DNA from: Sinorhizobium numidicum
Lineage (GTDB): Bacteria > Pseudomonadota > Alphaproteobacteria > Rhizobiales > Rhizobiaceae
Assembly: GCF_029892045.1 (NCBI RefSeq)
Contig: NZ_CP120368.1
Coordinates: forward strand, 618,001 to 682,000
DNA length: 64,000 nt
Reading direction: 5' to 3'
The first letter of the stretch is position 1, and the number at the start of each line of letters is the position of its first letter. Shown here piece after piece: positions 1 to 9,004 of this stretch. The position numbers and the translations under genes were made by a program. The notes beneath the pieces are model-generated. The model ran no database searches and was not told the origin of the DNA. It was given only the letters and a program-made list of their open reading frames with translations.

Positions 1-1
1 G

Positions 2-721
2 GCCTGGAACTGGGTAAGGGCGGAAGCTATCTGCGGCTTCATTACTAAAGGAACGACACCTCACGCGTCTCAGTTGCAATCGGGGACTGGCGATGTGCCC
101 TTCATCAAGGTCTACAACCTCACTTTTGATGGCAGCCTAAATTTCACTGTGGAGCCGACTTTCGTCTCTCGATCCACGCATGAAGGATTCCTCGCCCGGT
201 CGAGGGTGCTGCCCAATGATGTGCTAATGAACATCGTTGGGCCGCCTCTTGGTAAAGTAAGTATTGTGCCCAGCGATGCACCTGAATGGAACATTAACCA
301 AGCAATTGCCGTGTTCCGCACAATACCATCTGTGTCAGCCGCGTTTCTAGCGAAATGGCTACTTGCCGACGACCTAGTTCAATGGGGGGTTTCGCGTTCC
401 AAGGCTACAGCTGGTCAAAGCAACCTGACACTTGCTATCTGCCGTGACCTTCCTATACCTCTTTGCTCACTCAGGGAACAACAGCAGATTACCCGTCGTA
501 TTGATACGGCTTTCACGTGGATCGACCGCCTTGCCTCCGAAGCAACCAACGCCCACAAGCTGATTGACCATCTCGACCAAGCCGTGCTCGTCAAAGCCTT
601 CCGTGGCGAACTCATACCGCAAGATCCGGACGACGAACCGGCCAGCGTTCTCCTTGACCGGATCAGGGCAGAGCGTGGCGCGGCCCCAAAGGGCAATCAG
701 GGGCGGACCAAGCAATCATGA
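2..721 (+). CDS. hsdS: Type I restriction specificity subunit HsdS, 5'-truncated by window edge
   Basis: The specificity subunit of a type I restriction-modification enzyme recognises the target DNA for the HsdM/HsdR complex. The frame is open to the window edge, so the first target-recognition domain is missing. What remains starts with a W-x-G-TTP region typical of the start of a recognition domain, continues through GDVPFIKVYN, and ends with the conserved dimerisation helix region RDLPIPLCSLREQQQITRRID followed by LVKAFRGELIPQDPDDEPAS, the usual HsdS C-terminus. A TTG at 74 could be read as a start but is internal to the domain, so I treat the gene as partial. HsdM and HsdR are presumably to the left. 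Its stop overlaps the next gene in an ATGA. Confidence 0.9.
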   Translation, partial: AWNWVRAEAICGFITKGTTPHASQLQSGTGDVPFIKVYNLTFDGSLNFTVEPTFVSRSTHEGFLARSRVLPNDVLMNIVGPPLGKVSIVPSDAPEWNINQAIAVFRTIPSVSAAFLAKWLLADDLVQWGVSRSKATAGQSNLTLAICRDLPIPLCSLREQQQITRRIDTAFTWIDRLASEATNAHKLIDHLDQAVLVKAFRGELIPQDPDDEPASVLLDRIRAERGAAPKGNQGRTKQS

Positions 722-1077
722 CTGTCTACGAAAGCACTTTGACCCCCGGCAACTTCACGCTCCGGGGCACATGGCCGCACATCTACATCACCCCGTTTCT
801 GAAGCTGCTCCCTGCTGACGTGTTCGGTGGAACAACGAAATACGACCGTGCGCCGAGGTCTGTCCGACTAGATTTTGGGCCCCTCTGTACGGACACGTTC
901 GTACCGACGAACAAAAAGGGCAAGCCGCGCTATTTCTTTCAGGATCGCCTCTTCGTCCGCGAATTCTTCGTCAGGACCGGCGCGAAGCCGGGCGATACCG
1001 TGGTGTTCGAGCAAGTGACGCCCTATCATTTCCGGCTGTCCCTCAGGACGGTCGGAGGCAAGCTCATCACGGCGTGA
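718..1077 (+). CDS. Hypothetical protein translationally coupled to hsdS
   Basis: This 119-residue protein starts on an ATGA overlap with the hsdS stop, so the two are probably co-translated. The C-terminal half (REFFVRTGAKPGDTVVFEQ, then YHFRLSL) has the alternating beta pattern and 'G-x-x-PGD' turn seen in small pseudobarrel DNA-binding folds such as the B3/EcoRII-N type. That is a resemblance by eye, not an identification. There is no signal peptide or membrane segment. The coupling suggests a role with the restriction system, perhaps DNA binding or regulation, but function is not known. Confidence 0.6.
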   Translation: MTVYESTLTPGNFTLRGTWPHIYITPFLKLLPADVFGGTTKYDRAPRSVRLDFGPLCTDTFVPTNKKGKPRYFFQDRLFVREFFVRTGAKPGDTVVFEQVTPYHFRLSLRTVGGKLITA

Positions 1078-1338
1078 GAAGAGAGGACGACGAAACTCGC
1101 TGCCGATTGGAATGACGGGAACGCCAACATGATCACCAATGATCAGCGGCTGGGAAAACTGCCTCCGCGATCACCGGGGATCGTTCCGCCTACATGACGA
1201 CACCCAGACCTTTCCGCACGGCCACATTAGCTTTCCAAATCCGGTCGTCGTCTGCATCGATACCACTGGCGGCTCACCTTTCCCCACGCTAGAAATCGTT
1301 CTCTACTATCGGTTGGGGCGGCATCGGAGGGAAGGGCT

Positions 1339-1971
1339 GTGCGCACTTTGTTTGGCGTGAGACTATGGGTGGCGTTCTGGGTCCTGGCATTGGGTCTTGT
1401 CTTGACAAGCCCCGGCCTCGCCCAGGAACTAGCACCCACGGCCAGACCAGCAGAAACCGCAGAGGAACTCACTTTCCTCGCTGTGATCAACAACTACGCA
1501 CAAATTGTCGGGGGTGCCGTCGCTGCAGCTGCCGCAATCCTCGGACTTCCCCTTCTGTTGCAGAACTACCGTAAGACGAGAGCAGAGATCGAGAGGATCG
1601 AGCTGGAGTCGGCCCAGATAAGGGCGGGATTGACCACACGTGTGTTGCCTGAGGATAAATCAGCTGAAGCATTCAATCTCAATATCGAGGGTGACAGCAA
1701 TGCCGTTCAGATCACCGCTGATCCACGGTTATCAGGTCCGCTCATTCTGCTGGTGGATGTCTTCATCGGCTTTTTCTACTACCAGCTAGCGAGTCTGGCT
1801 GTGTCAATCCTGCCGATCTATCCGCTGGACAACGCTATCCACATCGCAGTCTTCGCGGTGGTCTTCATCCCGATATTCCGCGCAGCTCGGAACCTTAAGA
1901 GAGACTGGGGACCTCTGGCTTTCACGAGTGTCAAAGCCGTACAGGCAGAAACTCGCGCCCCCTCCGATTAG
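1339..1971 (+). CDS. Hypothetical inner-membrane protein with signal peptide
   Basis: 210 residues. The start is GTG at 1339, with a GGAGGGAAGG stretch just upstream. Residues 1-28 look like a signal peptide (WVAFWVLALGLVLTS, then a PGLAQ cleavage-like site). A hydrophobic segment follows at about 55-75 (GGAVAAAAAILGLPLLL), then a charged helix (RKTRAEIERIELESAQI), and two more hydrophobic segments at about 135-185. It has the layout of a small accessory membrane protein. I recognise no family. It lies in the island between the restriction cluster and the serine recombinase. Confidence 0.6.
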   Translation: MRTLFGVRLWVAFWVLALGLVLTSPGLAQELAPTARPAETAEELTFLAVINNYAQIVGGAVAAAAAILGLPLLLQNYRKTRAEIERIELESAQIRAGLTTRVLPEDKSAEAFNLNIEGDSNAVQITADPRLSGPLILLVDVFIGFFYYQLASLAVSILPIYPLDNAIHIAVFAVVFIPIFRAARNLKRDWGPLAFTSVKAVQAETRAPSD

Positions 1972-2415
1972 CCTCCGCCGGAATATTTGATACAAATTTC
2001 TGAGCGGGCGATCGGAATAGCGGCAAGCGCGAATTCCCCCCTCTCCCCGCCCTTGGTCCTTAATGAGATGCGCGTTTTTTTATCGGCTTGACCTTTGTTG
2101 AATGCGTGTCGGGCTCTTGGACAGAGTCCGCGACAGCAGCTTGCCCGCGCTTCAGACGTGGAACGGCAAGGAGGGAGGCGGCGGCTTGCAGCCGGTCAAT
2201 AGTGCCATTAGGCCCTGCCCTAAACGCCTCGCTTAACCTGACGTAGGATCAGTGAAGCGATTGAAGTCGCTCTCGACTAGAACTGTCCAGATGAGTAGGG
2301 GCCAATGGACGTCCGCCTCATGCTGCGATGATGTGTCCAAAAGACTACCTATTGACTTTTGGACACGATTGACTCACAAGCCTAGATGCTAATGGACACA
2401 TCGGGGGCTGATAAC
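1972..2415. other. Gene-free stretch upstream of the serine recombinase
   Basis: About 440 bases with no credible reading frame. It holds the inverted repeat described separately at 2333-2366 and scattered TGGAC/GTCC half-sites (2284-2289, 2306-2312, 2393-2399). Such half-sites are what a resolvase binding region would contain. No promoter can be assigned with confidence. Confidence 0.5.
2333..2366. promoter_or_regulatory. Inverted repeat, possible resolvase binding site or operator
   Basis: A perfect 11-bp inverted repeat, GTGTCCAAAAG (2333-2343) and CTTTTGGACAC (2356-2366), is separated by 12 bp and sits 50 bp before the serine recombinase start. Tn3-family resolvase subsites are inverted 12-bp half-sites beginning TGTC, and the arms here begin (G)TGTC. 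The 34-bp overall span fits a subsite. A further TGGACACA lies at 2393-2400. Binding by the adjacent recombinase is an inference. Confidence 0.5.
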
Positions 2416-2982
2416 ATGCAAGTTGGATACGCGAGGACATCAACGGAAGAGCAGGTCGCCGGGCTGGAGGCCCAGGTGCGAGACTTAGAAGCTGGCGGGT
2501 GCGATCGCGTCTACCGGGAGCAGGTATCGGCACTAGGGGACCGACCTGAACTGGAGGACGCACTGTCGTTCCTTCGCTCAGGCGATACGCTTGTCATCAC
2601 GAAGATTGACCGCCTTGCTCGAAACACGCGCACGCTTGGGGATATCGTTGATGATCTTCACAGGCGTGGGGTTGGCCTAAAGGTTCTGCAATTCGGCAAG
2701 GAGACGCTCGACACCACTGGTGCCTACGGTCGGCTGATGCTGAACATGTTTGCCGCATTCGCCGAGTTCGAGCGCGATCTGATGAAAGAGCGGCAGAAGG
2801 AAGGGATCGCCAAGGCCAAGGCCGAGCGGAAATACAAGGGCAGGAAACCAACCGCCCGAGCCAAGGCCGGAGAAGCGATCGAACTCTTCCGACAAGGAAG
2901 ATCGGTCTCCGAGATAGCTAAAGCGGTTGGCATCGGGCGTGGTTCCGTGTACCGCGCTCTGGAAGCTGCGGGCCTGAAGTAG
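2416..2982 (+). CDS. Serine recombinase (resolvase/invertase family)
   Basis: 188 residues. It belongs to the small serine recombinases, which cut and rejoin DNA at short inverted sites through a 5'-phosphoserine link. The N-terminus QVGYARTSTEEQ holds the expected catalytic serine region. It is followed by DRLARNTRTLGDIVDDL, the mobile-helix region MLNMFAAFAEFERDLMKER, and a C-terminal helix-turn-helix (GRSVSEIAKAVGIGRGSVYR). I chose ATG 2416 over ATG 2386 because family members begin just before the GYARxST motif and GGGGG lies at the right distance upstream. It probably acts on the inverted repeat just upstream and may resolve or invert part of the island. Confidence 0.93.
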   Translation: MQVGYARTSTEEQVAGLEAQVRDLEAGGCDRVYREQVSALGDRPELEDALSFLRSGDTLVITKIDRLARNTRTLGDIVDDLHRRGVGLKVLQFGKETLDTTGAYGRLMLNMFAAFAEFERDLMKERQKEGIAKAKAERKYKGRKPTARAKAGEAIELFRQGRSVSEIAKAVGIGRGSVYRALEAAGLK

Positions 2983-3060
2983 CCCTCGCTCTCACCGTGA
3001 CACTTAGGAGGCCGCTGGGGGCGCTGTGAGCGTTACCGAGCCTTCGCATGTCTGTCGGCG

Positions 3061-3090
3061 CCCCGCTGCCTGGAAGTGCGGGGTGGCTAT
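3061..3090 (+). terminator. Possible terminator after the serine recombinase
   Basis: CCCCGC (3061-3066) can pair with GCGGGG (3078-3083), with an 11-nt loop, followed by TGGCTATTTT. The T tract is short, so termination efficiency is uncertain. Confidence 0.35.
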
Positions 3091-3113
3091 TTTGACGAAT
3101 TGGAACTCTATGG

Positions 3114-4424
3114 ATGGATAAGGTCGCACCTATCTTTGACGTACCGGACGACGAGGTCGAGGAACGGGATCGTCCCTTCAACGCCTTTCGGTTCGCTGCG
3201 TCCGAGAACGCCAAGGCCATTGTGACGGAAGTCATTGGTTTGCTTTTGAACTACGAAGCCTATTTCGGGCTCAAGAAGAACAAGCGACGTGCGAAAGACC
3301 AGGAGACGTTCGACCTCACCGTCGACGCCATCCTATCCGACCTCATGCATCACCATCTCGTCGGAGAGGACGGAAGCATTTACGTCACCCGCTCCAACCG
3401 AGTCTTGGGCACGAAGAGCCGCTACCGACCACGCGCGTACAGCAAAATGTTCCCGTACATCCTGGACCTCCTGGCGAAGCCGGAAATGGGCTTTGTCGTG
3501 CAGGATGTGGCACCTGCGATCGAGGGGCTGGCGCGGTCGACGGTAGTCCGAGCGGGACAGCGACTCTTGTCGCGGATCGATGAAGGTGAAATCGGATTGG
3601 ATGATCTAGGCGAGCATCCGCATGGCGAGACGATTATCCTGAAACGCACCAAGGACGTTGACGACTACTGGGATGATGGCGGTTGGCAGGAGTATCAGGA
3701 CACTGCAGTAACCGACCAGTTCCGCCTGGAACTCGACCACATTAACCAGTGGCTGGCTTCGGCGGACTTGAGGTTCGAGAACACAGGCATCCCGTGGCCC
3801 CAAACGACATTCCACATCGGGGATCGGCAACTGCGTCGCGTCTTCACCCAGGGACGTTTCGACAGCGGCGGCAGATTGTTCGGCGGCTTTTGGCAGCGCC
3901 TCCGTAAGCATGAGCGGCGACAGGGGCTATGGATCAGCGGTGAGAAGGCCGTCGAACTGGATTACGGGCAGGTTGGTCCACGTATCGTGTATGCCCTGTC
4001 CGGGCAGAAGCCGCCCACAGACGATCTGTACCACCTCTGGGGCTACACTCAGCAGAGGGATGGCATTAAGCGCGTGATGAGTGCCATGATCTTCGCCTCC
4101 GATCGGCTGGACAGATTTCCAAAGGGCACCCGCAAGCTGTTCAGAAGGAGCGATAACATCGGCGAAGTGGTCGAAGCGATTGAGGCAAAGCATCCGCTGA
4201 TCAAGGATAGTTTTCATCGCGGCCTCGGACATGAAACCCAGTTCGTCGAAAGCCAGATCATGGTCGAAGTAATTCTTACTCTCAAGGCAGAAGGTATCGT
4301 GGCTCTGCCAATCCATGACGCAGTGATGGTCCCAGCTACCAAGGCCTCCACCGCAACCGAGGTCATGCTCTCCACTTTCCATAGGCACACAGGGGTGGAG
4401 GGGATTGTTACGGAGGAGGCATGA
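3114..4424 (+). CDS. Protein with family-A polymerase-like palm motifs, function unknown
   Basis: 436 residues. The C-terminal 170 residues contain, in order and spacing, motifs like those of single-subunit (family A) polymerases. A motif-A-like VELDYGQVGPRIVYALSG has its Asp at 283. A motif-B-like RDGIKRVMSAMIFAS has R315 and K319. A motif-C-like LPIHDAVMVP has H401-D402. Family A DNA polymerases have DYSQIELR and HDE at these places; T7-type RNA polymerases have KRxVM and HDSF. The N-terminal 270 residues are unrecognised and show no 3'-5' exonuclease motifs. At 436 residues it is short for a full polymerase. Similar rhizobial proteins exist as hypothetical island genes (general memory, not searched). 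It may be a primer-polymerase, a template-independent transferase or a replication protein of the island. Start ATG 3114 has only a weak ribosome site. Confidence 0.7.
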   Translation: MDKVAPIFDVPDDEVEERDRPFNAFRFAASENAKAIVTEVIGLLLNYEAYFGLKKNKRRAKDQETFDLTVDAILSDLMHHHLVGEDGSIYVTRSNRVLGTKSRYRPRAYSKMFPYILDLLAKPEMGFVVQDVAPAIEGLARSTVVRAGQRLLSRIDEGEIGLDDLGEHPHGETIILKRTKDVDDYWDDGGWQEYQDTAVTDQFRLELDHINQWLASADLRFENTGIPWPQTTFHIGDRQLRRVFTQGRFDSGGRLFGGFWQRLRKHERRQGLWISGEKAVELDYGQVGPRIVYALSGQKPPTDDLYHLWGYTQQRDGIKRVMSAMIFASDRLDRFPKGTRKLFRRSDNIGEVVEAIEAKHPLIKDSFHRGLGHETQFVESQIMVEVILTLKAEGIVALPIHDAVMVPATKASTATEVMLSTFHRHTGVEGIVTEEA

Positions 4425-4526
4425 GAAGAGGTCTCTAACCTCTCCTTCCTTCTCTTCATCATGGTCGGGTGGAACCTCTCCAACTACCTATGAGGAACCT
4501 ACCACTCACCTTAGAGGGACTCGAGA

Positions 4527-5228
4527 TTGGAAACAAACTGGACAAGAAAACGCGGGAGACGGGACGAGGTAAAGGCCCGGGCAGCCGAGCCCAGCCAAAT
4601 GTTCTCCCGGTGTCGCGTGATCGGCTGCAGCAAGCCCGCTCGTGCTGGAACGGGCGACGGTCTGGACACGCGGTTCTGTCGTTCCCATGCGGATCACTAC
4701 GCCCGGCATGGTAGCCCCTACAAGCCCTCCTATACCGCTCAAGAGATCGGCCCATATCGCAAGGCGGCCATGGAGTGGCTGAAGGCGAACGAAGGCGATC
4801 TGTGGGTCCGCAATGCTATTGACCGCGTGAGGACACTGTACGAGACCGCAGGGCCTCACGTAGAGGCGTTCCGGCTGCGCGGGTTGTCTCCAGAGGCTCG
4901 CGCCAAGGCAGCCTGGGCGAGGCTGAGAAAGGCCAACGTGGACCCGCGCCGGGTGGTTGTAGCGTGGCTCGCTATAGAGACGATCGTTCGTGATGATCCA
5001 CAATCGGACACGAAGGCCGAATACAAGCGTGTTCAGGCCGCGAAGCTCATTCACAAAATGGCTTCCGGGACGCATAAAAAATGGGGCGATGGACCAGACG
5101 CTAAGCAGCTTCACGTGTATCCGAGATCACGCGGGAAAGTGCTGAGGCACATGGGCCGAGATGCCGAGAAAGCCTGTGAGCTTCTGGTGCAGCATTTGGA
5201 GCCCCGGTTCCATCGCGCAACTACCTAA
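4527..5228 (+). CDS. Hypothetical protein with Cys/His zinc-finger-like motif
   Basis: 233 residues. It follows the polymerase-like gene by about 100 bp on the same strand. Residues 29-57 hold C-x4-C-x16-C-x2-H, with another His and RHGSPYKP after it. This pattern resembles the small zinc-binding segment in some phage HNH-like proteins, but no HNH catalytic motif is evident. The remainder is helical, basic and soluble (EARAKAAWARLRKANVDPRR). The start is TTG 4527 after AGAGGG; ATG 4599, just before the first Cys, is the alternative. The shared orientation suggests it may work with the upstream protein, for example in DNA binding. Function unknown. Confidence 0.6.
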   Translation: METNWTRKRGRRDEVKARAAEPSQMFSRCRVIGCSKPARAGTGDGLDTRFCRSHADHYARHGSPYKPSYTAQEIGPYRKAAMEWLKANEGDLWVRNAIDRVRTLYETAGPHVEAFRLRGLSPEARAKAAWARLRKANVDPRRVVVAWLAIETIVRDDPQSDTKAEYKRVQAAKLIHKMASGTHKKWGDGPDAKQLHVYPRSRGKVLRHMGRDAEKACELLVQHLEPRFHRATT

Positions 5229-5610
5229 TGCCTCGTTCGCACCCGCTGAAGTCTTTGGCAATCAGCGTGTGCTCTTTATGACGCCCAGGCATTACCTACG
5301 AGGCACGCCAGAAGAGGCGTTCCGAAGACGACCGCCAGGTACGGACTTGTCGATCACACAGCGACATGACGCTCCATCCAATATCGCACTGGCGGTAAAT
5401 GGCACTCGCGCTTTGTCGTTCAGGTCGAGCCTTGAACGCCATTTGCAAGAGCAAGTATGGGGACGCCCTGCCTAACAAAATCCTGAAGCGGGATCATCTC
5501 CAAAAGCGGATTAAATACAAATAAACCAATCGCTTAGAGACAAGAATACCCCTTGCCTCATCTATCCGACAACCTTAGCCTGTCAGTGTGTCAACTGTAG
5601 GAGGCAAAGC
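5229..5610. other. Gene-free stretch before the first tyrosine recombinase
   Basis: About 380 bases. No frame here shows a credible start and composition. An A/T-rich segment (about 5510-5560) and an AGGAGG ribosome site at 5599-5605 precede the next gene. A promoter is probably here but cannot be located reliably. Confidence 0.4.
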
Positions 5611-6651
5611 ATGGCGGTCAGGGAACGCGGGAAAGGCTATCAGGTAGACTTCGCCGTAGCAGGGGTAAGATATAGACCACCGATCTTTGCCTCTGCCGAA
5701 GACGCAATCAAATGGGAAGCTGAAGCTCGGGCCGCTGTTAGGCTTGGAAGGACGTTGCCGAGCCTTCCGACATTCATTGAGGGTTTGCAGGAGAGCAGCA
5801 TCGGACACGCTCTGAAGCAAGCGAAGGAGAAACGGTGGGCGTACAAGAGGGGCTCTTCAAGGACCGTCTGTAATGCCGAGAAGTTTGCGGAATGGGTCGG
5901 CAAGAAGGAAAAAGTCTCCATCGCGCTATCCGAGGATAAAATACACGAGTTCGTCCGCTACCTCATCAATAAGCGGAAGGTTTGCGGATCGACAGTGAAC
6001 CGGTATCTCTCGGCTATCTCGGTCCTGATCGAACACGCGAGGGTGGAGCGGCCCGAACTTCCTTACCAGAGCAAAGGGAAGACACGACAACGGTTCTTTA
6101 CTGACGAAGAAGTTGACCTTGTCATTCAAACCCTCTCGCTTTGGGGCAAAAGTCGCGAAAGGGACCTGTTCATCTTCCTCGTGGATACCGGAGCGCGCCC
6201 TTACGCCGAAGCTTGCGCACTCCGATGGGAGAACGTCGGCAATCGTAGAGTAACTTTCGTGGGTACTAAGAACGGCGACGACCGGACACTGCCTCTGACA
6301 ACCCGCGCATGGGAAGCGGTGCAGCGCCAGCGAAGCGGGGCACAGCGCCAACTCGAAGGGCCCTGGTTTGATATTGCCGATTGGCAGATGGTGGAGGTCT
6401 GGCGGAACATACGGGCGCATATCCCGGCATTGAAGGACACCGTCGTCTACACAGCCCGTCACACCTGTGCATCTAGGCAGGTAATAGATGGCATAGACCT
6501 TTTGCGGGTCATGAAGTGGATGGGCCATCGATCGTACCAAACGACACTCGGCTATGCCCATCTTGCTCCAGATCATCTAATGGAAAACCTTCGCGTACTA
6601 GAAGGCCGTGGATCGAATAGGTTGATGGAGATCAATCGCAGAAACGACTAG
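5611..6651 (+). CDS. Tyrosine recombinase/phage-type integrase
   Basis: 346 residues, with a good AGGAGG site upstream. The N-terminal part has an Arm-type DNA-binding look (RGKGYQVDFAVAGVRYRPP). The core-binding domain is at about 70-150. The catalytic domain shows the first Arg in DTGARPYAEACALRW, the H-x-x-R box in YTARHTCASR, and WMGHRSYQTTLGYAHLAP with the final His and the Tyr nucleophile. All expected catalytic residues are present, so it is probably active. It runs head-on into the second integrase: the two stop codons share the palindrome CTAG. It may mediate a different excision or a multimer-resolution step from the tRNA-Thr integrase. Confidence 0.92.
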   Translation: MAVRERGKGYQVDFAVAGVRYRPPIFASAEDAIKWEAEARAAVRLGRTLPSLPTFIEGLQESSIGHALKQAKEKRWAYKRGSSRTVCNAEKFAEWVGKKEKVSIALSEDKIHEFVRYLINKRKVCGSTVNRYLSAISVLIEHARVERPELPYQSKGKTRQRFFTDEEVDLVIQTLSLWGKSRERDLFIFLVDTGARPYAEACALRWENVGNRRVTFVGTKNGDDRTLPLTTRAWEAVQRQRSGAQRQLEGPWFDIADWQMVEVWRNIRAHIPALKDTVVYTARHTCASRQVIDGIDLLRVMKWMGHRSYQTTLGYAHLAPDHLMENLRVLEGRGSNRLMEINRRND

Positions 6652-8183
6652 TCCGCCCGCGTTTTGGCTTTCACATCATATTTCGGGAGCTTGAGAATTT
6701 CACGATACAGCGCTTTCATGGTGTTCTCGCCGTAGTCAGAACTTGCACTGCCATCTTCGTGACCCTGTATGGCGTCCATGTATCGAGGCGCAATATCGAC
6801 ATCTCGCGCGACCGTTTTGAAGCGGTGCCGCCATGCGTGATTGGGCTGCACACGCCTGTCGGTAATCTTTGCAACATCCCTAACCCAATCACTCACTTTA
6901 CCCCGAACGCTTGCTGCCTGAGTGTGCCCAGGCTTTCTTTTGCGGTCGTTCGGAATGTAGAAGAGCGGACCTTGCGGTCTCGATTGGACGAACTCTATCA
7001 ACCCCAGTTCAACCAGGTGGGGATGGATTGGCACCATCCGATATAGGCCCGTTTTGACCGAGCCGGCTTCCGGCGTGATCTTGAGAAACGGGATGCCGTA
7101 TTCCTCTGAAAAATCCTCCCGCCTCAACTGCGTGATTTCCCCGGCTCTTGCTCCCGTATAGGCGCAAATCCACGGAACCCATCGACAGGCCAACTTATTG
7201 AGCTCTGACATCTGACCGAGAGAGGATGGATCCCCTAGGGCACACGCCAGAATGACCTTGGCCTCCGCATCTGTGAAGCTCTTGGGTCGTTCTTTGATGG
7301 CCTTCGGGACGGAGACTTTGATGTTCGCCGTGGGGTCAGCTTTGATACGAGATTTCGCGAGCCCAACTCGGAAGATGATCCGGATTGCAGCGAGATATTT
7401 GCCGTTGACTGTTTTGGCAGACAAGCCCCGTTCGTGTCGCAGCATGTCGCAATATTCCGACACATTCAGCCCGGTTACCGTCTCTGCGTTCTCATGCCCT
7501 AGGTGCTTTTTGAAGTCTTTGATCTTCTGCAGGAAGTCCGCTGGCGTTCCCTGTGCGCCATTGTCGGCTAGGTGATCGCGCTCCCATAGCTTGAACAAAT
7601 CTGTGAGCGTTACGGCTTTGGCCTTCGTACCCCTTGGCTTCAGAGGGGGAAAGCGATTGGCATTGGGGTCTGGACTGTAGTTGCCCTCGGCTTTCTTAAC
7701 TTGCTGTGCCGCCGCTAGGAGAAGTGTTTGATGCACCTGCTGGATGAGGCGCTCGCGGCTCTCGTGATCGGTTACGGTGTCTTCGCTCAGAAGAAGTTCA
7801 TCTACGCTCGGACCGTACCATTGTTCCCAGTTTCCATCAGCTGCGACCCGCTCGGCCAGCGATATGATGTTTCGCCACAGTTGCGGGCTACCGGGCTCGT
7901 CATCAAACTTCTCGATAATTTTCCGGTAGACCTTGCCGCTCAACGCAACGATCTGTTTCTGAGACAGTGGTTCCGGTCTGGTCCTAAGCAACCTCCAATG
8001 TTTCGTGACCTGCTGTTCCTTAGCGGAGAACAGCTCTTTGGCGGCTGCTGGCTCTTTGGTTCCCAGCGAAATTTTTATCTCACGCTTTCCGATGGCACCC
8101 ACCAAATCGGCAGGGACGCGCATTCGAAAATAGTAGACACCGGTCTTAGGATGTTTGAACGGGCGGGGCATGTGCAGAACCAT
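6648..8183 (-). CDS. Tyrosine recombinase adjoining tRNA-Thr (island integrase)
   Basis: 511 residues, reading away from tRNA-Thr, the usual layout for the integrase of an island in a tRNA 3' end. The N-terminus (HMPRPFKHPKTGVYYFRMRV) matches the domain at the front of many large alphaproteobacterial integrases. Catalytic residues are visible in CAYTGARAGEITQLRRED, NHAWRHRFKTVARD and IQGHEDGSASSDYG. ATG 8183 is preferred over GTG 8192 because GAGGTGG lies 8 bases upstream of it. That ribosome site lies inside a small hairpin (see findings). It probably integrates and excises the island whose end is at 8263. Confidence 0.92.
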   Translation of the reverse strand: MVLHMPRPFKHPKTGVYYFRMRVPADLVGAIGKREIKISLGTKEPAAAKELFSAKEQQVTKHWRLLRTRPEPLSQKQIVALSGKVYRKIIEKFDDEPGSPQLWRNIISLAERVAADGNWEQWYGPSVDELLLSEDTVTDHESRERLIQQVHQTLLLAAAQQVKKAEGNYSPDPNANRFPPLKPRGTKAKAVTLTDLFKLWERDHLADNGAQGTPADFLQKIKDFKKHLGHENAETVTGLNVSEYCDMLRHERGLSAKTVNGKYLAAIRIIFRVGLAKSRIKADPTANIKVSVPKAIKERPKSFTDAEAKVILACALGDPSSLGQMSELNKLACRWVPWICAYTGARAGEITQLRREDFSEEYGIPFLKITPEAGSVKTGLYRMVPIHPHLVELGLIEFVQSRPQGPLFYIPNDRKRKPGHTQAASVRGKVSDWVRDVAKITDRRVQPNHAWRHRFKTVARDVDIAPRYMDAIQGHEDGSASSDYGENTMKALYREILKLPKYDVKAKTRAD

Positions 8184-8262
8184 TGTGGCCACCTCTGTGT
8201 ACCACCGAGGTGCTTACAAATCCTTGAAAACAGCTAGTTATTTGATTTCCAGATAGGAAAAC

Positions 8263-8337
8263 TGGTGCTGCTAGAGAGATTTGAACTCTCGGCCTCTCCC
8301 TTACCAAGGGAGTGCTCTACCCCTGAGCTATAGCAGC
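8263..8337 (-). tRNA. tRNA-Thr (anticodon GGT), island attachment site
   Basis: Read on the minus strand it starts GCTGCTATAGCTCAGGGGTAG, has anticodon stem CTCCC/GGGAG around loop TTGGTAA (anticodon GGT), a T arm with GTTCAAATC, and acceptor TAGCAGC plus A and encoded CCA (8263-8265). All arms pair. The island integrase begins 80 bp beyond its 3' end, so the 3' part of this tRNA is the likely att core. I saw no second copy of its 3' end in positions 1-8262, so the other end of the island is outside the window. Confidence 0.95.
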
Positions 8338-8604
8338 GTCCGGCGGCGGTTTTTCACAAGCCGCATCAGGCGAGGCGCCTATTGCCATAGCTTGAGGGAG
8401 AGCGCAAGCCGCATTTCCAAGTTTTTGGCCGGACCGAGATCATGAGGATTTCCGCTGAGCCAAGCCAAAGGCATAAAGCTGATCGATTCCAATGCGTTGA
8501 AAGCGGGAAGCGAGGGAAAACCGCACCGATTTTTCCTTTGCCCGTTTAAACAGAAATCGCCGTGCCGCTTTCGAATATCCGTCTTTTGCGCTAAGGCATT
8601 GCGC

Positions 8605-8817
8605 ATGCAAGACGATGACGACAAGCAGCGTGCGCGGGGTCCGGAAAGGGGCGCGGAGCGCAGCAGCAAACAGGCCGAGGCGAGAAAGTCGCGCTTGGCC
8701 AAGAACCTGCGCGACAACCTCCAGCGCCGAAAGCAGCAGATGCGCGCGCGCCGTGCCGGCGCCGCCGACGAGACATCCGGACTGCCTGCCGCAAAAACGG
8801 ACGAATCGGAAGATTAG
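8605..8817 (+). CDS. Small conserved basic protein upstream of murA
   Basis: 70 residues, highly charged (EARKSRLAKNLRDNLQRRKQQ). Short proteins with this KSRLAKNLRDNLxRRK core precede murA in related rhizobia, which I recall as conserved hypothetical proteins. ATG 8605 opens the acidic start MQDDDDK; the upstream part of the frame lacks coding character. There are no membrane segments. It may bind nucleic acid, but nothing in the sequence proves this. Confidence 0.6.
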   Translation: MQDDDDKQRARGPERGAERSSKQAEARKSRLAKNLRDNLQRRKQQMRARRAGAADETSGLPAAKTDESED

Positions 8818-9004
8818 ACAGCGGCGGGGATGGAGGTTGCGAAGCCTCTGTCTACCATTCCCACAGACCGGCAATTTCAAGGCACTTCTAATTTCATGGC
8901 ATCTCCACTAAGAGACGCCCCCTAGCACCACTGAATTTGGCACCACCGAATTTGGCAACATCGTATTTTTTGGAAAGGCGGGCACGGCCCGTTCGAGAGG
9001 TCTC

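Follow-up and report, generated by a model that had tools for sequence, protein, structure and literature searches.

A predicted TV-Pol-type family-A polymerase in the recombination arm of a tRNA-Thr island of Sinorhizobium numidicum

Results

Genes at the locus

The window, meaning the whole 64,000-nucleotide stretch of S. numidicum DNA that was analysed (NZ_CP120368.1, positions 618,001 to 682,000), carried a polymerase-like gene at 3114..4424 on the forward strand; the list of open reading frames and the translation gave it an ATG start and a product of 436 aa (P0001). A small serine recombinase of the resolvase type (198 aa; 2386..2982, +; PF00239, E=3e-39, with HTH_7) was encoded directly upstream; the first-pass annotation of this DNA had noted a serine recombinase beside the gene. 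The repeat search revealed a perfect 34-nt dyad (11+12+11) at 2333..2366, 20 nt upstream of the recombinase ORF, which is a possible recombinase site. Similar TGTCC...GGACA dyads were found upstream of the recombinase at a few other loci (L012 and L027); when 49 upstream regions were scored against 60 shuffles, eight exceeded the highest shuffled score, and that of the nearest relative (L002) was not one of the eight. Downstream of the polymerase gene were a 233-aa protein with a putative zinc motif (C3H + RHG; 4527..5228, +), a tyrosine integrase of 346 aa (5611..6651, +; PF00589, E=2.8e-14) and, beside the attachment site, a 514-aa tyrosine-integrase-like protein with DUF6538 (6648..8192, -; PF20172, E=1.7e-18; PF00589 sub-threshold at 0.0062). 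No iterons or origin were seen near the polymerase gene in the three intergenic stretches searched. At the left end of the window, a 119-aa gene with no family match (718-1077, +) immediately followed the type I specificity gene.

The tRNA-Thr island

The tRNA/Rfam scan placed a tRNA-Thr (GGT), the integration site, at 8263..8337 on the reverse strand. A 34-bp perfect direct repeat at its 3' end (8255..8288) recurred at 8599-8632 of L115, 11.4 kb to the left of the window start, and the two copies bounded an island of 19.66 kb, in agreement with the earlier reading of the locus as an integrated element. The polymerase gene is located in the recombination-gene arm of this island. The cargo comprised a protein kinase, a UvrD-like helicase, a 467-aa protein, an S_4TM protein and type I restriction-modification genes. 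Within L115 9051-13904, the genes for the kinase, the helicase and the 467-aa protein formed one run with the S_4TM (SMODS-associated effector) gene on the opposite strand, possibly a defence cluster.

Both repeats were also present in a second species (G006), where they lay approximately 19.8 kb apart and the left one was matched over 28 nt. The right arm was shared between the two islands (window 2272-5287 at 90% and 5374-8429 at 97%), but the left part held other genes, with a type I restriction-modification set that differed from the window's and lay on the opposite strand. The polymerase thus moves together with the recombination genes rather than with the cargo. This association is not obligatory. 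In a third species (G019), the island at the same site (L163, L164) held a DUF6538 integrase-like gene, a small serine recombinase and HsdM with no TV-Pol, indicating that the polymerase is dispensable for this type of island. In G003 roughly 0.7 kb separated the left-flank sequence from the tRNA, the arrangement that an empty site would show; the comparison was informative in this genome only, the flank being too diverged in the others. When the window was compared with G006, the dN/dS of the polymerase gene was 0.13, showing that it is under purifying selection; the values were 0.10 for the serine recombinase, 0.10 and 0.12 for the integrases, 0.18 for the zinc-motif protein and 0.03 for murA.

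Flanking ORFs were clustered across 84 loci, namely the window and 83 others, of which 80 remained once duplicates were removed. A small serine recombinase was found within 4 kb of the polymerase in 34 of the 45 loci with flanks of at least 4 kb, upstream and co-directional in 32, and a member of the window's two integrase clusters occurred somewhere in the locus in 35/45. The clusters containing the window's HsdS and the two large ORFs that usually adjoin it, presumed to be HsdM and HsdR, were present in 11/45. The conserved neighbour set contained no helicase gene.

Conservation of the polymerase

P0001 was aligned with the products of 60 of the 84 loci, and identity to P0001 in this 61-sequence alignment reached down to 23%. 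The window's own copies were left out, as were L003 (the same polymerase as L021), L008, L009, L029 (split ORF), L082 and L083, four ORFs shorter than 390 aa (L047, L056, L061 and L077) and twelve near relatives of retained rows (L013, L015, L016, L019, L023, L028, L030, L031, L045, L059, L067 and L069); L004 and L068, which encode one polymerase, were both retained. Residues were counted in 194 sequences, of which 192 were distinct over their whole length and 189 over residues 160-430, with the same proportions. These sequences are the listed part of at least 608 homologues, and the units are sequences rather than independent events. L123, with a polymerase gene broken by an insertion, was excluded from the counts.

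The motifs proposed in the first-pass annotation stood where it had placed them. Motif A (residues 281-290; 3954..3983, +), within which LDYGQVGPR contains the predicted catalytic D283, retained this residue in 192/192 relatives; R315 and K319 of motif B (residues 315-327; 4056..4094, +) were each present in 191/192; and H401 and D402 of motif C (I400-H401-D402; 4311..4319, +) were kept in all 190 ungapped relatives. Between motifs A and B, a D-x-Y motif (D304-L-Y306; 4023..4031, +), whose equivalence was assigned by motif and not by hhalign, had an invariant D304 (192/192). Ahead of motif A, the segment GGRLFGGFWQ (residues 252-261; 3867..3896, +) contained R254, which like R242 was found in 192/192 relatives, while R248 was found in 132/192 and, within motif A, R290 in 185/192. 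The invariant columns of the 61-sequence alignment were R204, R242, G253, R254, G257, G258, W260, D283, D304, Y306, R315, K319, L398, H401 and D402.

Pfam gave no exonuclease and no other family for the polymerase at the cut-off, consistent with the earlier description of a 436-residue protein lacking exonuclease motifs, and no named family was returned by Pfam, NCBIfam, PADLOC or PDB sequence searches. None of the 61 family members matched PF00476 (Pol I) or PF00940 (T7-type RNAP) with E up to 10. All 61 matched phrog_4756, an unannotated phage protein family of unknown function to which vibriophage relatives such as ICP1 ORF100 also belong. Three UniProt entries among the homologues listed carried automatic names, two of them 'DNA-directed DNA polymerase family A palm' and one 'DNA-directed RNA po...'.

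Relationship to family-A DNA polymerases

The 61-sequence family profile was compared by hhalign with a profile of 17 family-A DNA polymerases (DNAPs; eight Pol I including that of the genome itself, T7 gp5 and eight phage enzymes). A local alignment of 195 columns was obtained (P=2.9e-5, Prob 73.6%), in which the Asp of motif A was matched by D283, the Arg and Lys of the O helix by R315 and K319, and the His-Asp of motif C by H401-D402; the motif-B Arg four residues ahead of the Lys was present in 17/17 DNAPs. The alignment bore out the A, B, C order of family-A-like motifs given in the first-pass annotation. The real score was 49.1, or 45.1 on the trimmed columns used with the shuffles, and none of 200 shuffled DNAP profiles came near it (best 22.4 for 100 column-shuffled and 33.0 for 100 block-shuffled profiles); the one reversed profile scored only 15.3. 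A diverse DNAP profile was required; hhalign comparisons with individual sequences of T7 or Pol I were uninformative. The family profile gave no significant match to a profile of T7-type RNA polymerases (RNAPs; P=0.025). This comparison was uninformative because the score between the DNAP and RNAP profiles, which represent known relatives, was just as poor (P=0.027, not significant). The hairpin Arg of the DNAPs was aligned by hhalign to R248, not to R242 or R254. Given the profile alignment and the invariance of the catalytic residues, we take family-A homology as established at the level of sequence, and a palm and fingers of the family-A type as supported.

Active-site positions

Active-site residues were counted in 192 family members, 17 DNAPs and seven phage RNAPs, with the T7 numbering checked; one RNAP (L129, an incomplete frame) gave gaps at motifs B and C. 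In the hhalign register, which is anchored here by D283 and R290, position 288 corresponds to the steric-gate Glu of Pol I (E710) and to G542 of T7 RNAP. The Glu was present in 17/17 DNAPs and in 0/192 family members, and the RNAPs had Gly in 7/7. The family had G (86), N (45), A (21), F (13), T (10), S (5), M (4), L (3), Y (2), C (1), H (1) and Q (1) at this position, so that 24/192 had a bulky residue there (F, M, L, Y, H or Q). Position 323, the place of Pol I F762, was Asn or Ser in 181/191 members and never Phe, compared with F 15, Y 1 and L 1 in the DNAPs and Met in 6/6 RNAPs. Position 327, the place of T7 Y639 and of Pol I Y766, was Phe in 174/191 members and Tyr in two, compared with Y 15 and F 2 in the DNAPs and Tyr in 6/6 RNAPs. 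Position 306 was Tyr in 192/192 members and in 7/7 RNAPs (Y571) and His in 17/17 DNAPs, an equivalence that rests on the D-x-H/Y pattern between motifs A and B, since hhalign leaves the D-x-H of the DNAPs in a gap. Two residues after R254, the family had Phe (180) or Tyr (12), the RNAPs Tyr (7/7) and the DNAPs Ser, Ala or Thr (17/17), a weak comparison that presumes R254 to be the hairpin Arg. Three of the five RNAP-like positions (288, 323 and 327) therefore follow the hhalign register, and two (306 and R254+2) follow motif matching unsupported by hhalign. The counterpart of T7 H784 and Pol I Q849 had no secure placement in the family. Aligned in this way, the order of motifs A, B and C is that of both T7-type RNAP and bacterial Pol I, and the predicted active site is a mixture of DNAP-like and T7-RNAP-like residues.

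The zinc-motif neighbour

The zinc-motif gene adjoined the polymerase gene in 36 of the 62 loci whose flank reached 1.2 kb or more, which makes its product a likely partner of the polymerase. It was downstream in 20 of these (by 62-252 nt) and upstream in 16, and seven of the 16 upstream genes overlapped the polymerase ORF by 4 nt. A recognisable partner was absent in the other 26 of the 62 testable loci, where a motif scan revealed none hidden. The loose zinc motif was found in 6 of 6,784 other ORFs, none of which adjoined the polymerase. The alignment kept 39 of 44 zinc-motif proteins, excluding two duplicates, two fragments and L064, which has a longer first Cys spacing and in which the four ligands were visible by eye. 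The four putative zinc ligands C29-C34-C51-H54 and the R60-H61-G62 that follows (4611..4712, +) were invariant in 39/39.

DnaG and PrimPol are described as gripping the template by a zinc-binding domain (PMC7581432), and it is a reasonable guess by this analogy that the zinc-motif protein holds the template. A zinc-chelating domain and, in the supplement, a 'C3RHD' are named in Iyer 2008 (PMC2579912); the 'C3RHD' domain may be the same as the zinc-motif protein.

Comparison with TV-Pols and CCPol

TV-Pols were described in 2008 by Iyer, Abhiman and Aravind as predicted primase-polymerases (PMC2579912). They have an RRM-like palm with two metal-binding Asp, fingers with an Asp and RxxxK, a bi-helical coiled-coil thumb and an absolutely conserved Arg in a beta-hairpin ahead of motif A; some are linked to a D5 helicase (PMC2579912). 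One subset, in alphaproteobacteria, has an uncharacterised all-helical N-terminal domain and a gamma-delta-type resolvase, lambda-type integrase or transposase as neighbour (PMC2579912). The 'new class' and 'new N-terminal domain' of the first-pass annotation are not supported in view of this description. On the described features that could be tested, P0001 fits a TV-Pol. Its 436 aa, with no nuclease match or known domain, fall within the shared range of 400-600 aa; D283 and D402 would be the two catalytic Asp on motifs A and C; and D304, R315 and K319 would supply the fingers Asp and RxxxK. The counterpart of the hairpin Arg may be R254 or R242, both invariant, or the less conserved R248 to which hhalign aligned it. 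An N-terminal extension, a small serine resolvase upstream, lambda-type integrases downstream in the window, mobile restriction-modification regions and occurrence in alphaproteobacteria are also shared. A D5 helicase, in contrast, was neither fused nor a conserved neighbour here.

CCPol is the TV-Pol of SCCmec. The CCPol-MP pair is reported to prime DNA, and CCPol without MP just to extend primers (PMC7581432, PMC10061031). The authors of the 2020 eLife paper were aware of no other TV-Pol that had been characterised biochemically (PMC7581432). The island described here resembles the CCPol-MP/PolA-SSB loci of SCCmec and Bacillota islands in that a family-A polymerase gene has, as neighbours, a small gene for a partner protein and genes for site-specific recombinases. 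However, the partner is an OB-fold SSB in CCPol-MP and a zinc-motif protein here, and CCPol-MP has a linked helicase and serine recombinases of the large type, whereas here no helicase is linked to the polymerase and the serine recombinase is of the small type. The OB-fold gene of PolA-SSB loci stands between polymerase and helicase; here the polymerase gene was followed by the zinc-motif gene and then an integrase.

The active sites differ as well. CCPol, which has counterparts of both E710 and F762, shows a preference for dNTPs and uses these alone for priming (PMC7581432), while the present family lacks the gate Glu. The gate residue is not the sole determinant, because in primed controls NTPs were incorporated as well by CCPol, which bears the Glu (PMC7581432). 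The nucleotide choice of the family may differ from that of CCPol, and rNTPs could be used for primers since the ribose-excluding Glu is missing. A search of open-licence papers on TV-Pol, C3RHD and phrog 4756 found none on ribose selection or a zinc partner in these proteins, a weak negative.

Discussion

The polymerase probably starts and copies the DNA of its island, judging from family and context. The best explanation, to which we give a probability of roughly 60%, is that it is an island TV-Pol: an exonuclease-free primase-polymerase with a family-A palm and fingers and an N-terminal extension, helped by the zinc-motif protein and perhaps tolerant of ribose. An integrase would release the island in circular form; primers would then be made de novo and extended by the polymerase, for which the zinc-motif protein would hold the template, so that the island is copied; and the resolvase-type recombinase would resolve multimers. 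Less firmly, the primers may contain rNTPs, or rNTPs together with dNTPs. More speculative is the proposal of a two-part primase-polymerase outside DnaG/AEP, in which a gate-less TV-Pol would start strands with rNTPs or a mixture, a C3H zinc subunit would hold the template, and the pair would drive the replication of proteobacterial islands. If this tentative proposal were true, the two-part enzyme would be intermediate in mechanism between Pol I and the T7-type RNA polymerases.

The missing gate Glu and the Tyr of D-x-Y, shared with all the phage RNAPs, could instead point to a single-subunit RNA polymerase or a pure RNA primase that uses only rNTPs to transcribe or prime the island. We regard this as unlikely, because the profile similarity is to DNA polymerases and not to RNAPs, and 436 aa, compared with 883 for T7 RNAP, are too few to include a promoter-binding N-domain of the T7 type. 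Moreover, the place of T7 Y639 is mostly Phe in the family, and the T7 Y639F mutant takes 2'-fluoro and 2'-amino nucleotides, its 2'-group selection being loosened (PMC4551944).

It is similarly improbable that the enzyme depends on primers and acts in repair or gap filling, for example by making the second strand after single-stranded transfer. The behaviour of CCPol without MP and the second-strand synthesis proposed for SCC (PMC7581432, PMC10061031) favor this role, but the dedicated zinc-motif neighbour and the family precedent of priming argue for a primase.

A part in island anti-phage defence, with the polymerase activity as sensor or effector, is very unlikely. The island does carry the kinase, the UvrD-like helicase, the S_4TM protein and the type I restriction-modification genes, the zinc-motif protein weakly matched the defence candidate PDC-S02 (E=8.8e-4, PADLOC), and Rice 2023 raises defence as possible for PolA-SSB pairs. 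The polymerase, however, matched no PADLOC model and moves with the recombination arm rather than the cargo.

We give equally little credence to a reverse-transcriptase-like or template-independent tailing enzyme, since reverse transcriptases carry a YxDD-type motif C instead of the I-H-D found here, and the Rfam search of window positions 1-9000 returned nothing at the cut-off besides the tRNA. Nothing else supported it beyond some addition to ends that CCPol-MP carries out in vitro in the absence of a template (PMC7581432). Among the functions offered by the first-pass annotation, the replication enzyme is thus the one best supported by family and context, and nothing specific was found for the reverse-transcriptase-like or tailing alternatives.

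The family to which the polymerase belongs is common, its members are small, and from its active-site residues a choice of nucleotides unlike that of CCPol is predicted. The family would allow a test of whether one family-A enzyme can prime and polymerise while lacking selection against ribose, as has been proposed for the common ancestor of Pol I and T7 RNA polymerase (PMC2579912). The polymerase gene was single-copy in this genome and was found in 8/100 relatives and 11/200 genomes of the phylum, with the own genome counted in both; the closest homologue among the matches listed was from Sinorhizobium medicae (94% identity), and the homologues formed at least 608 clusters at 90% identity. 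A pattern-based scan of species genomes gave 72 loci, mostly in alphaproteobacteria as judged by genome title, with a minority in beta- and gammaproteobacteria, Desulfovibrio-type bacteria, two Nitrospira and one planctomycete. Homologues were also present in three plasmid records, two IMG/VR records and 51 phage records, the last all from Vibrio phages and 22-25% identical. Two vibriophage proteins of unknown function, ICP1 ORF100 (L165 550-2217) and the product of L166 982-2625, were approximately 21% identical; both retained the catalytic Asp, Arg, Lys and His-Asp residues, and the gate Glu was absent from both.
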